Part shown: positions 34,636-48,062 of the stretch, piece by piece
Layout of the letters: each line of letters starts with the position of its first letter
Position numbering within the stretch: the first letter of the stretch is position 1
NCBI GenBank assembly: GCA_022791755.1
Contig: JAAVZR010000016.1
Span: forward strand, 124,001-188,000
DNA from: Lachnospiraceae bacterium
GTDB taxonomy: Bacteria; Bacillota; Clostridia; Lachnospirales; Lachnospiraceae
Reading direction: 5' to 3'
DNA length: 64,000 nucleotides
Notes under the pieces: generated by a model
Databases searched by the model: none
Seen by the model: only the letters and a program-made list of their open reading frames with translations
What the model was told of the DNA's origin: nothing
Translations under genes and position numbers: made by a program

Positions 34636-34956
34636 AATCCTGTTCCTTTTTGCAGAGCAACCGTGTTCGCGCTCTGGTGATGCGCCGTGGGCGCAGATAA
34701 AGTTACTGTGGGAGCAAAATTGTAAACAGTAACATTTTATCATAGAACGCCGTGAAAATGATTTAAAAAATGTTTACAAATTATAACGAATTTTTGTATA
34801 AAATATTTTTCGTTATCCCGAATCCGAATATGGCATTGCTGCCGTTTCCCGGACAGCGGGGACGATTCCAAAAGGCGAAAACAGGGAGTATCGGAGGCTT
34901 AACCGGCCGGGGAAATGCTGTAATTATGGCGTTTTTTAACAAAATGTGAAAAAATA

Positions 34957-34984
34957 TTTACAAATTAATGACATGTGGTATAAT
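34957..34984 (+). promoter_or_regulatory. Candidate promoter for murA
   Basis: TTTACA-16 nt-TATAAT. Confidence 0.6.
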
Positions 34985-36494: not shown

Positions 36495-36595
36495 CTCTTA
36501 TTCAGAGTGATGGAGATACATAGGATCTGTGAAGTCACGGCAACCCCTGAAAGACGGAAGGTGCCAACCTGAGCGAGCGAGTCGAACAATAAGAG
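36495..36595 (+). promoter_or_regulatory. SAM-I (S-box) riboswitch aptamer
   Basis: CTCTTAT...AGAGTGATGGAG...TAGGATCTGTGAAGTCACGGCAACC...AAGGTGCCAACCTG...ATAAGAG; P1 closes exactly (36495-36501/36589-36595). Confidence 0.95.
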
Positions 36596-44358: not shown

Positions 44359-46473
44359 ATGAATGAAAAGATTAATGTGACAGATATTTTTGGCGCTGAC
44401 GTATTTAGTGATTCTGTCATGAGAGAACGTCTGCCGAAGAAAGTGTATGCCGAGGTGAAGAGGACGGTGGAGACAGGGGCGGATATGTCCCTGGCCACGG
44501 CTGACGTGGTGGCCAACGCCATGAAAGACTGGGCGGTGGAGCGGGGGGCGACCCATTATACCCACTGGTTTCAGCCGCTGACCGGCATCACGGCGGAGAA
44601 GCATGACTCCTTTGTGACGGCTCCGAAGAATGGAAAGACGATTCTGGAATTCTCCGGTAAGGAGCTGATTAAGGGGGAGCCGGACGCCTCCTCCTTTCCC
44701 TCCGGAGGTCTGCGCGCCACCTTTGAGGCCAGAGGCTATACGGCCTGGGACTGCACTTCCCCGGCTTTTTTGAGAGAGGACGCCACGGGCGTGATTCTGT
44801 GCATTCCGACGGCCTTTTGTTCCTACACCGGAGAGGCGCTGGATAAGAAGACGCCGCTGCTGCGTTCCATAGAGGCGGTCGGCAGCCAGGCTCTGCGGAT
44901 TCTGAAATTATTTGGCAATACCACATCCACCAGGGTGACGCCCAGCGTGGGGGCGGAGCAGGAATATTTCCTGATAGACCGGGATAAATATCTCCAGAGA
45001 AAGGACCTGATCTATGCGGGCCGTACGCTGTTCGGCGCCGCGGCGCCCAAGGGACAGGAGCTGGAGGACCACTATTTTGGCACGATCCGGGAACGGATCG
45101 GCGCATACATGAAGGATCTGAACATCGAGCTGTGGAAGCTGGGGATCCCGGCGAAGACCCAGCACAATGAGGCGGCTCCCGCCCAGCATGAGCTGGCCCC
45201 GATCTATGAACAGGCCAATATCGCTGTGGATCATAATCAACTGGTGATGGAGACGATGAAAAAGGTGGCTGGCCGTCATAATATGACCTGCCTGCTCCAT
45301 GAGAAGCCCTTTGCAGGTGTCAATGGTTCCGGCAAGCACAATAACTGGTCTCTGACCAGCGATGACGGCATCAATATGCTGGACCCCGGTAAGACGCCCC
45401 ATGAGAACATCCAGTTTCTGCTGGTTTTAGCCTGTATCATGAGGGGGATCGACATCCACGCGGATCTTCTGCGTCAGTCGGCTTCCAATGTGGGGAATGA
45501 CCACCGTCTTGGCGCCAATGAGGCCCCCCCGGCCATCATTTCCATGTTTTTGGGCGTGCAGCTGGAGGATGTGGTGAAGCAGCTGGTGGAGACCGGGGAG
45601 GCCACATCCTCTATCCGCGGAGGAAAGCTGGATACCGGCGTCCACAGCCTGCCGGTGTTGGCAAAGGATGCCACGGACCGCAATCGTACGTCCCCCTTTG
45701 CCTTTACCGGCAATAAGTTTGAATTCCGTATGGTGGGCTCGGCCGATTCCATTGCCGATCCCAACACCACCCTGAATGCCATCGTGGCCGAGGCATTTTG
45801 CCAGGCGGCCGACCGGTTGGAGCAGGCGCCGGACTTTGACACGGCGGTCCATGATCTGATTAAGGAATATATGAGCGAGCATCAGAGGATCATCTTCAAC
45901 GGAAACGGTTACTCCGATGAATGGGTGGCGGAGGCCGCCAGGCGAGGCCTGCCGAACATTCGCTCCATGGTGGATGCCACGGCGACTCTGACTACGGACA
46001 AGGCGGTGGCATTGTTTGAAAAATTTGGTATTTTCACCAGGGCGGAGTTAGAGTCCAGGGAAGAGGTGCTGTATGAGACCTATGCCAAGGCCATCAACAT
46101 CGAGGCTCTGACCATGATTGATATTGCCACCAAACAGATCATCCCTGCTGTGATCTCCTACACCACAGAGCTGGCCACCTCCATGAACGCCGTCACAGGC
46201 GCCTGTCCGGAGGCGGATATCAGCGTGCAGAGGGAGATTCTCATGGAGGTGAGCGCTCTGCTGTCCGATACCAAGGTGGCGCTGTCTTCCCTGAAGGAGC
46301 GTCAGACGGAGGCGGCGTCCTGCCCGGAGGCCAAAACAGCGGCTTTCTATTATAAAGACGAGGTGGTTCCGGCCATGACGGCTCTGCGTTCACCGGTGGA
46401 CCGGCTGGAGATGCTGGTGGATAAGAAATACTGGCCCATGCCTTCCTATGGCGATCTGATTTTTGAAGTCTGA
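44359..46473 (+). CDS. glnN: Glutamine synthetase type III
   Basis: 704 aa; ATHYTHWFQPLTGITAEKHDSF, FPSGGLRATFEARGYTAWD, AKTQHNEAAPAQHELAP. Confidence 0.96.
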   Translation: MNEKINVTDIFGADVFSDSVMRERLPKKVYAEVKRTVETGADMSLATADVVANAMKDWAVERGATHYTHWFQPLTGITAEKHDSFVTAPKNGKTILEFSGKELIKGEPDASSFPSGGLRATFEARGYTAWDCTSPAFLREDATGVILCIPTAFCSYTGEALDKKTPLLRSIEAVGSQALRILKLFGNTTSTRVTPSVGAEQEYFLIDRDKYLQRKDLIYAGRTLFGAAAPKGQELEDHYFGTIRERIGAYMKDLNIELWKLGIPAKTQHNEAAPAQHELAPIYEQANIAVDHNQLVMETMKKVAGRHNMTCLLHEKPFAGVNGSGKHNNWSLTSDDGINMLDPGKTPHENIQFLLVLACIMRGIDIHADLLRQSASNVGNDHRLGANEAPPAIISMFLGVQLEDVVKQLVETGEATSSIRGGKLDTGVHSLPVLAKDATDRNRTSPFAFTGNKFEFRMVGSADSIADPNTTLNAIVAEAFCQAADRLEQAPDFDTAVHDLIKEYMSEHQRIIFNGNGYSDEWVAEAARRGLPNIRSMVDATATLTTDKAVALFEKFGIFTRAELESREEVLYETYAKAINIEALTMIDIATKQIIPAVISYTTELATSMNAVTGACPEADISVQREILMEVSALLSDTKVALSSLKERQTEAASCPEAKTAAFYYKDEVVPAMTALRSPVDRLEMLVDKKYWPMPSYGDLIFEV

Positions 46474-46499
46474 GAAATTCAGGTACGGATGATAAAAAG

Positions 46500-46526
46500 G
46501 GACCTTCCCGGCAGGGGAGGTCCTTT
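46500..46526 (+). terminator. glnN terminator
   Basis: GGACCTTCCC-N4-GGGGAGGTCCTTT. Confidence 0.75.
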
Positions 46527-46537
46527 GCTCTGAAAAT

Positions 46538-46900
46538 GAAAAGGAGGTGGGCTGATGTTGTACATCAGCCCGCTTATGAAAAAATGAAAAGAAACATTCT
46601 CTATATTATTTATCATACAGAAGAAAAGTGACGAAAAAATGGAAGCCATGTGAAATGTCGTTAAATGTTGTATGAACAATTTATGAACGGAGTCTGGCAA
46701 TGAAAAAGGAACCGTTTTGACGAGAAACGGTTCCTTTTTCATATGATATAAAACAAAAAAGGGAGGAGAGCTGATGCTGCAAATCAGCTCAATTATGAAA
46801 AAACATAAAGTCAGTAAGCATTTCTTATGATTATACTATACAAGGGAAAGATGAAGAAAAATTGTGGAGTTTGAAAACAAAATTTAAAACGATTGTAAAC
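46538..46900 (+). repeat. Tandem imperfect duplication (about 219-bp offset) of an RBS/hairpin/mini-ORF module
   Basis: Unit 1 GGAGGTGGGCTGATGTTGTACATCAGCCCGCTTATGAAAAAA; unit 2 GGAGGAGAGCTGATGCTGCAAATCAGCTCAATTATGAAAAAA; similar A+T-rich 3' portions. Confidence 0.7.
46702..46740. terminator. Terminator between the two module copies
   Basis: GAAAAAGGAACCGTTT-TGACGAG-AAACGGTTCCTTTTTC, perfect 16-bp stem. Confidence 0.85.
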
Positions 46901-46964
46901 AAAATATGAATGGATCAGGGGAAAATTCTGTGGTAAAATGGTGAGGAGAGGAGTGATTACAGAT

Positions 46965-48062
46965 ATGGTAGTAACATATAAATGTCCGGGCTGTGGCGCA
47001 GCCATGGAGTTTGACGGACAGAGGGGGAAGCTGTACTGTGACAGCTGCGGACATCAGATGTCGGTGGATCAGTATGAACAGCAGTACGGGAGCCCTCTGA
47101 AAGAGGAAGGGGAGGATTTCGATGAGGAATCTCCTCTGGGGGAGGACAGTTATACGCGGGCAGAGACAGACGGCGAAGAGCAGACGGTGCAGGTGCAGCT
47201 GTATCATTGCCCCAGCTGCGGAGCGGAGCTGATGACCGACGAGCATACGGCAGCGACGATCTGTTCGTTCTGTGGCAGTCCGGGGCTGATCGCAGACCGG
47301 ATGAGCGGTGTGCGAAAGCCCAGAGCAGTCCTGCCCTTTCGGATTACGAGAGAGGAAGCAAAGGAGCGCTTTCTGAAGTGGACGAAGCACGGCCTTCTGA
47401 CACCGCCGGAATTCACATCGAAGAACACGCTGGAGAAAATCGTTGGCATGTATGTGCCCTATTGGCTGTATGATTATCAGGTGAACGTAGCGCTGCGGGC
47501 CAGGGCTACGCGCAGCCGCACGACGGTAAGGGGAGATACGGAATATACATATACGGATCACTACAGTGTGTACCGCAGCGTGGATACGGCCTTTGAGCGA
47601 ATTCCGGTGGACGCGTCGGAGCAGATGGAGGATGCGGCCATGGAGAGCCTGGAGCCCTATGACTACAGCGGGCTGAAGGACTTTGATATGGCGTATCTGT
47701 CCGGCTATCAGGCGGAGAAGTATAATTTCACCAGCGATGAAGTACAGGGGCGTGCCAAGAACCGGGCCAGGGAGGCAGCCATCGGCGTGGCCCGCAATAC
47801 CATCGGCGGATACCACACGGTCAATGTGGTGGATCAGAGAGTGCAGATCCAGGAGCGGCATGTAGACTATGTCATGCTGCCGGTCTGGGTGCTGAACTAT
47901 CGCTATCAGAATCAGAATTACACGTTTTTGCTGAACGGGCAGACCGGAAAGCTGAACGGCCGGCTGCCGGTCAGCGTCGGTAAGATGGCGAAGTGGTTTG
48001 GGATTATCAGCGGTCTGTCCTTTGCGGGGCTGATGGCGATTGCTTTGATGGGGGTGCTCTGA
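46965..48062 (+). CDS. Zinc-ribbon membrane protein
   Basis: YKCPGCGAAMEFDGQRGKLYCDSCG and YHCPSCGAELMTDEHTAATICSFCGSP ribbons; C-terminal TM. Confidence 0.8.
   Translation: MVVTYKCPGCGAAMEFDGQRGKLYCDSCGHQMSVDQYEQQYGSPLKEEGEDFDEESPLGEDSYTRAETDGEEQTVQVQLYHCPSCGAELMTDEHTAATICSFCGSPGLIADRMSGVRKPRAVLPFRITREEAKERFLKWTKHGLLTPPEFTSKNTLEKIVGMYVPYWLYDYQVNVALRARATRSRTTVRGDTEYTYTDHYSVYRSVDTAFERIPVDASEQMEDAAMESLEPYDYSGLKDFDMAYLSGYQAEKYNFTSDEVQGRAKNRAREAAIGVARNTIGGYHTVNVVDQRVQIQERHVDYVMLPVWVLNYRYQNQNYTFLLNGQTGKLNGRLPVSVGKMAKWFGIISGLSFAGLMAIALMGVL

Follow-up and report, generated by a model that had tools for sequence, protein, structure and literature searches.

Predicted tandem small-RNA genes on the minus strand of a repeated hairpin locus in Lachnospiraceae

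The locus described here lies in a 64,000-nucleotide stretch of a Lachnospiraceae bacterium genome (contig JAAVZR010000016.1; hereafter, the window). It is flanked on the left by a gene for a type III glutamine synthetase (44359-46473, plus strand; Pfam PF12437, PF18318 and PF00120) and on the right by a gene for a zinc-ribbon protein (46938-48062, plus strand; Pfam PF08271 and tblastn), both of which stand outside the system. An earlier note on this DNA had reported two units made of GGAGG, a hairpin and TTATGAAAAAA, and these are present as claimed, at 46543-46571 and 46762-46790, with a spacing of 219 nt. They form one direct repeat family of 53 nt with 77% identity between the copies. The G-C to A-T change at the second stem position is real, and both plus-strand mini-ORFs can be read in the sequence as they had been given. 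A covariance model of the unit, which counted both window copies among its 15 training sequences, found them in the window with E = 2e-11 and 3e-9, and nothing else credible. The repeat unit is far beyond chance. The perfect inverted repeat between the copies was also confirmed, but its length is 18 bp (46700-46717/46725-46742) and not 16, and the terminator that it had been taken for is that of a minus-strand gene, the predicted sRNA-B described below. The similarity between the copies runs about 120 nt further than had been noticed, to the plus-strand right of each hairpin, and this additional stretch proved to be the minus-strand gene's promoter.

On the minus strand, the hairpin repeat corresponds to a predicted pair of tandem small-RNA genes, sRNA-A and sRNA-B. 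In both, six TTCAYA-N5 hexamers and a -10 box precede a brief 5' segment, which leads into UUUUUUCAUAA and then the hairpin; CCUCC(C) comes next, and an AU-rich linker joins it to the terminator hairpin. In sRNA-B the promoter array occupies 46845-46910 and contains six 11-nt-phased hexamers (TTCATA/TTTACA/TTTAAA/TTTTCA/CACAAT/TTCATC), the units being, in order, TTCATATTTTG, TTTACAATCGT, TTTAAATTTTG, TTTTCAAACTC, CACAATTTTTC and TTCATCTTTCC; it is supported by sequence, by conservation and by matches at 46837-46873 and 46876-46910 to R3, a sequence-only model of the array without the RNA. The -10 region of this gene (TATAGTATAAT, 46830-46840) holds TATAGT at 46840-46835, in the conserved register with its fixed 9-nt spacing, and an overlapping TATAAT at 46835-46830. 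The transcript, with ends placed from the -10 box and the terminator, would span 46700-46828 (about 125 nt). It contains the anti-start element UUUUUUCAU, complementary to AUGAAAAAA and conserved among homologs (46795-46803), the hairpin GAGCUGAU/AUCAGCUC (46768-46790), for which covariation was seen over 60 homologs, the anti-Shine-Dalgarno linker UCCUCCC (46761-46767) and a terminator hairpin with an 18-bp perfect stem and a U run, found by repeat search and folding (46700-46742).

The sRNA-A gene has the same layout. Its array, recognised by sequence and by an R3 match at 46615-46655, lies at 46622-46687 (TTCATA/TTCATA/TTTAAC/TTCACA/TCCATT/GTCACT, again in 11-nt phase), and its -10 box, TATGAT (46612-46617), was placed by the register rule from the promoter alignment. 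The transcript, delimited in the same manner, would cover 46494-46605 (about 110 nt) and carry UUUUUUCAU at 46576-46584 (sequence and a match to the covariance model R2), the hairpin GGGCUGAUGU/ACAUCAGCCC at 46549-46571 (R2 match, E = 3e-9) and CCUCC at 46543-46547. Its terminator (46494-46523; fold and sequence) is bidirectional and serves the glutamine synthetase III gene as well. Compared with shuffled sequences, the two predicted RNAs fold much more stably (z = -7.2 for sRNA-B and -4.7 for sRNA-A). The zinc-ribbon gene adjoins the sRNA locus also in relatives within the genus and in genome G013 (tblastn). As a cis target it was rejected: it is divergent from the sRNAs, and at other loci the sRNA is flanked by different genes, frequently with a symporter-like gene to one side and a PPIase to the opposite side.

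Recurrence in other Lachnospiraceae, for which a search had been proposed, was observed in dozens of genomes. A DNA search of 61 genomes located the locus in the window genus and two other genera, and R2 detected the minus-strand core in 55 of 397 genomes sampled from the family, with a per-genome cut-off of E <= 0.05. Taken at face value, the rough E-values predict some 20 matches by chance at this cut-off, but almost every one of the 60 aligned members has both TTTTCATAA and CCTCC, the two unpaired elements. An exact pattern matched 108 stretches among 85,462 named species genomes. The 80 matches listed bear, with two exceptions, Lachnospiraceae or broader Clostridia/Eubacteriales labels (Hungatella, Enterocloster, Lacrimispora and others); the two are MAGs labelled Paenibacillaceae (L169 and L176), and these labels are likely taxonomic mislabels. 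An order-wide sample gave no convincing member outside the family, with one marginal match at E 0.04. Outside the window genus the gene is mostly present as a single copy per locus, the tandem pair being a feature of the genus.

Compensatory changes were found in all eight stem pairs, with 98.6% of cells paired, in an alignment of 60 homologs that had been fitted to the structure and so favours this result somewhat. None of 500 shuffles reached the observed covariation values, and slid control structures failed. The hairpin loop varies freely while the unpaired elements hardly change: TTTTCAT occurs in 60/60 homologs, TTTTCATAA in 58/60 and CCTCC (CCUCC in the RNA) in 58/60. Since the wobble cells comprise 23 G-U on the minus strand as against 4 A-C (which would be G-U on the plus strand), it can be concluded that the minus strand is the folded RNA. 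The earlier note had thus named the right option when it listed a structured sRNA family, but on the opposite strand.

Conservation of the promoter provides an independent test, because the upstream sequence is not part of R2. The 11-nt-periodic array is conserved upstream of 100 homologs, with a mean score of 18.8 in comparison to -12.6 (sd 7.2) for dinucleotide shuffles; 91% of these regions exceed the best of 500 shuffles, and in the same 100 regions periods of 9, 10, 12 and 13 do not score. When 28 diverse promoters were aligned on the -10 box, the alignment was nearly gapless, the last hexamer standing 9 nt before a -10 of the TATAct type. The hexamer consensus is TTCAYA-N5, and no -35 consensus was recognisable in the aligned promoters. 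From this layout we infer response-regulator binding sites in the hexamers; the arrangement would be that of an activator-dependent promoter with a regulator of the OmpR/PhoB family. A search for the array in 14 genomes gave 25 matches versus 1 for a reversed-pattern control, most of them being the RNA itself or new paralogs. Elsewhere in the window (34741-34972, minus strand), an AT-rich intergenic region contains TTCACA-like 11-nt-phased hexamers with a crude-scan score of 22 and no R3 match, possibly a site of another regulator.

R3 was run in ten genomes and its 47 strong matches were inspected. An automatic test for TTTTTCATA and a C-rich stretch within 170 nt was passed by 40; a further two belong to copy-A genes already known, whose T run is shorter, so that about 42 of 47 have the same plan. 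Downstream of the remaining five are RNA-like sequences of a different kind, with no gene apparent. Searches for the array uncovered RNAs of the same plan with other hairpin sequences. One paralog type, with a GCCCCGG stem, adjoins a gene that by its sequence is of the manganese-dependent pyrophosphatase type, others have GCCGGC-type stems, and several carry CCCCC or CAACC in place of CCUCC. The present genome contains four such RNAs, at least two of them beyond the window pair (G000:C40:220481-220526 and G000:C39:21609-21648), and Hungatella hathewayi has at least eight. That the window pair are sRNA genes under a shared regulator box is very likely.

Some of the array-driven RNAs are of separate kinds. 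L300 (G309:C5:28844) and L317 (G025:C21:61222), from two genera, show a GC-rich hairpin followed by TTACATCCCCCTTTTTAGTAT, with no obvious ORF, and L312, L315 and L320 represent a further type, in which a TCGGCGG/GCCGGC stem is combined with CTCAACC and TTTTTCATA is missing. An sRNA with a CCCCCUCC linker adjoins an MreB-like gene (L286/L294 in G001:C88, L293 in G006 and L274 in G000). In G001 this MreB-adjacent sRNA is itself tandemly duplicated, 330 nt apart; therefore, duplication has occurred more than once in the genus.

The array is also found before a protein-coding gene. In this genome it precedes, by 108 nt, a gene whose product is an HtrA-type protease with trypsin-like and PDZ domains; this gene adjoins a LytR-CpsA-Psr gene. 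Orthologs of htrA in other genera carry it at E <= 0.03 (L330, L331, L334, L336, L337 and L339), pointing the same way as the gene and in most cases no more than about 110 nt from its start codon, with weaker matches at E 0.04-0.3 (L335, L338 and L341). The same-genus orthologs L326-L329 gave no R3 match, although this genome's own htrA did. The presence of the array before htrA indicates an envelope- or secretion-stress regulator of the CiaR/CssR/LisR type. Such a regulator was sought through an array of its own among mid-range R3 matches of several genomes, and no two-component operon was found there; these matches gave more sRNAs and weak array-like sites before genes for an Hsp20-like protein, a VTC-domain-like protein and a cell-wall-repeat protein (L357 at G000:C30:68797, L361 and L363), which are possible further regulon members.

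In the mechanism that we propose, a response regulator of the OmpR/PhoB family that answers to envelope or secretion stress would bind the array and activate transcription of the sRNAs. UCCUCCC would then pair antiparallel with the Shine-Dalgarno (SD) sequence GGGAGGA and, further along the mRNA, UUUUUUCAU would pair with AUGAAAAAA at the start codon, the sRNA hairpin taking the place of the spacer between SD and AUG. The resulting duplex would block ribosome loading, mainly on mRNAs of exported proteins that begin with MKK, while HtrA would deal with misfolded exported protein. Co-folding with the start of a same-genus lipoprotein gene yields such a two-part duplex, with partial opening of the hairpin. 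The anti-SD/anti-start mechanism is likely.

As to the targets, a hydrophobic N terminus was found in 18/27 genes with GGGAGG-N4-10-ATGAAAAA, versus 35% (p = 8e-4) in background genes which, being drawn from sRNA neighbourhoods in related species, are not independent. Many of these genes encode lipoproteins by sequence, and among MKK starts the hydrophobic N terminus is present in 20/21. In the predictions the starts of exported or membrane-like genes are bound more strongly (p = 1e-8). A control RNA with a scrambled anti-start element prefers exported genes as well (p = 9e-6), and the extra effect of the element is modest (p = 0.006). Since the binding preference is only partly due to the anti-start element, the target choice is plausible rather than established; that exported proteins are the main targets is slightly more likely than not.

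The same sRNAs could instead work mainly by another route, such as protein titration, protection of mRNA 5' ends or altered decay. One report describes Bacillus subtilis RoxS as acting also on mRNA decay (PMC5419742), and the paralogs with CCCCC or CAACC would agree with this. Both complementary elements, however, are near-invariant, their antiparallel arrangement fits an SD followed by an AUG, and we consider such a main route improbable in comparison to SD/start blocking.

The regulator could also be the phosphate regulator PhoB/PhoP, the sRNAs then serving in phosphate starvation. The TTCAYA-N5 repeats, their 11-nt phase and their distance to the -10 box resemble Pho boxes, and one paralog type adjoins the pyrophosphatase-like gene. 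However, no PstB match over the cut-off was obtained in the draft genomes G000, G003 and G006, all of which have the sRNA; an R3 search of three pst loci gave no match, hence no box upstream of pstS; and htrA carries the array. After testing, PhoB was given up as the first choice of regulator, and a role of this kind is improbable.

Plus-strand translation fares far worse. It would make the units a leader peptide or micropeptide, a toxin in one of the versions put forward earlier, or a translational switch with the SD outside and the ATG inside the hairpin. Within the window genus the peptides are indeed alike (MLQISSIMKKT and variants) and the SD spacing is plausible. Yet the same-genus copies L005A and L008A keep the stem and lose the ATG, the G-U pattern favours the minus strand, and near the copies no promoter for the plus strand was detected, the -10 box and array that are conserved pointing left. 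Because 47 of the 58 homologs with GGAGG have no plus-strand ATG at the right distance, the mini-ORFs are removed as an explanation, and this reading is very unlikely. The peptides are alike because UUUUUUCAU and CCUCC are conserved, and the plus strand looks like GGAGG-ATGAAAAAA since it mirrors an RNA that is itself complementary to translation starts. A non-functional repeat or mobile element, for which the tandem duplication in the window genus would speak, has a negligible chance of being right in view of the covariation, the conserved promoter, the neighbours that recur in many relatives and the fact that other genera mostly have one copy at each locus.

Taken as a whole, the explanation by sRNAs driven by a stress regulator, pairing with translation starts and acting alongside HtrA appears probable on the basis of these sequence comparisons. 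The sRNAs appear to be an undescribed multi-copy family in gut Lachnospiraceae, a dominant family of the human and animal gut whose small RNAs appear little described; our search of open-access journal papers returned no description in Lachnospiraceae. The promoter and RNA signatures recover family members with few other matches. A stress regulon shared with HtrA is predicted, in which an SD plus AUGAAAAA would be a simple rule for the silenced mRNAs, so that control of exported-protein synthesis under envelope stress becomes testable in cultured Hungatella hathewayi and Enterocloster bolteae.

The closest comparison is with the streptococcal csRNAs, which are likewise multi-copy, with an N5-spaced hexamer direct-repeat box near the -10 and with anti-SD and anti-AUG elements (PMC3091779, PMC8186281). 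In csRNA promoters CiaR binds TTTAAG-N5-TTTAAG, the second hexamer lying ten nt before the -10, and CAU is carried by 53/61 csRNAs (PMC3091779). In the Lachnospiraceae RNAs, unpaired and near-invariant UUUUUUCAU and CCUCC flank the hairpin, and several related sRNAs per genome stand under one box (four here, at least eight in H. hathewayi). CiaR also controls htrA. On the other hand, the NTTAAG-N5-TTTAAG promoter is absent; the repeat here is TTCAYA, in up to six copies versus two in csRNAs. Here the hairpin separates the anti-start from the anti-SD, while csRNAs carry the two in unpaired regions, typically between two stem-loops; the anti-start is extended to UUUUUUCAU, the hosts are Clostridia, and no sequence similarity was found. 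Lacking the TTTAAG box, differing in topology and showing no sequence link, the RNAs described here are not classed as csRNAs.

Listeria LhrC is reported to be multi-copy, LisR-dependent and linked to envelope stress, with CU-rich UCCC motifs covering the SD; the passages on it describe no anti-AUG element and no known LisR consensus (PMC4132741). The multi-copy state and the C-rich, SD-covering design are shared, as would be two-component control under envelope stress, but the sequence is different, and sRNA-B has one UCCUCCC element, whereas the loops and linker of LhrC hold three CU-rich sites. RsaE/RoxS of Firmicutes, controlled by a response regulator, also directs a C-rich motif against the SD. 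Its family (RF01820) gave a weak minus-strand match of 30.5 bits, far under the gathering score of 79, over only the terminator and hairpin region of sRNA-B, and none in 20 homolog loci. The Rfam search suggested in the earlier note (Rfam 15; window and homolog loci) yielded no family at gathering score over the element; the window gave only a SAM riboswitch elsewhere (RF00162, 67 bits, 36495-36595, plus strand) and the homologs only SRP RNA in the flank.

In E. coli, envelope stress induces, through sigma-E, a DegP/HtrA-type protease together with the sRNAs RybB and MicA, which halt exported-protein synthesis. That system is based on a sigma factor and Hfq, aims at outer-membrane porins and has no homology to the sRNAs described here. 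For the Lachnospiraceae, we put forward, with the chances for and against evenly balanced, an undescribed regulon of gut bacteria in which one envelope-stress regulator would drive HtrA and 4 to 8 or more paralogous sRNAs per genome, whose two arms, straddling a hairpin, would close on the SD and on the AUGAAAAA start in mRNAs of exported proteins and shut down lipoprotein synthesis as a group. If true, this would be a Gram-positive counterpart of the sigma-E/RybB-MicA logic.
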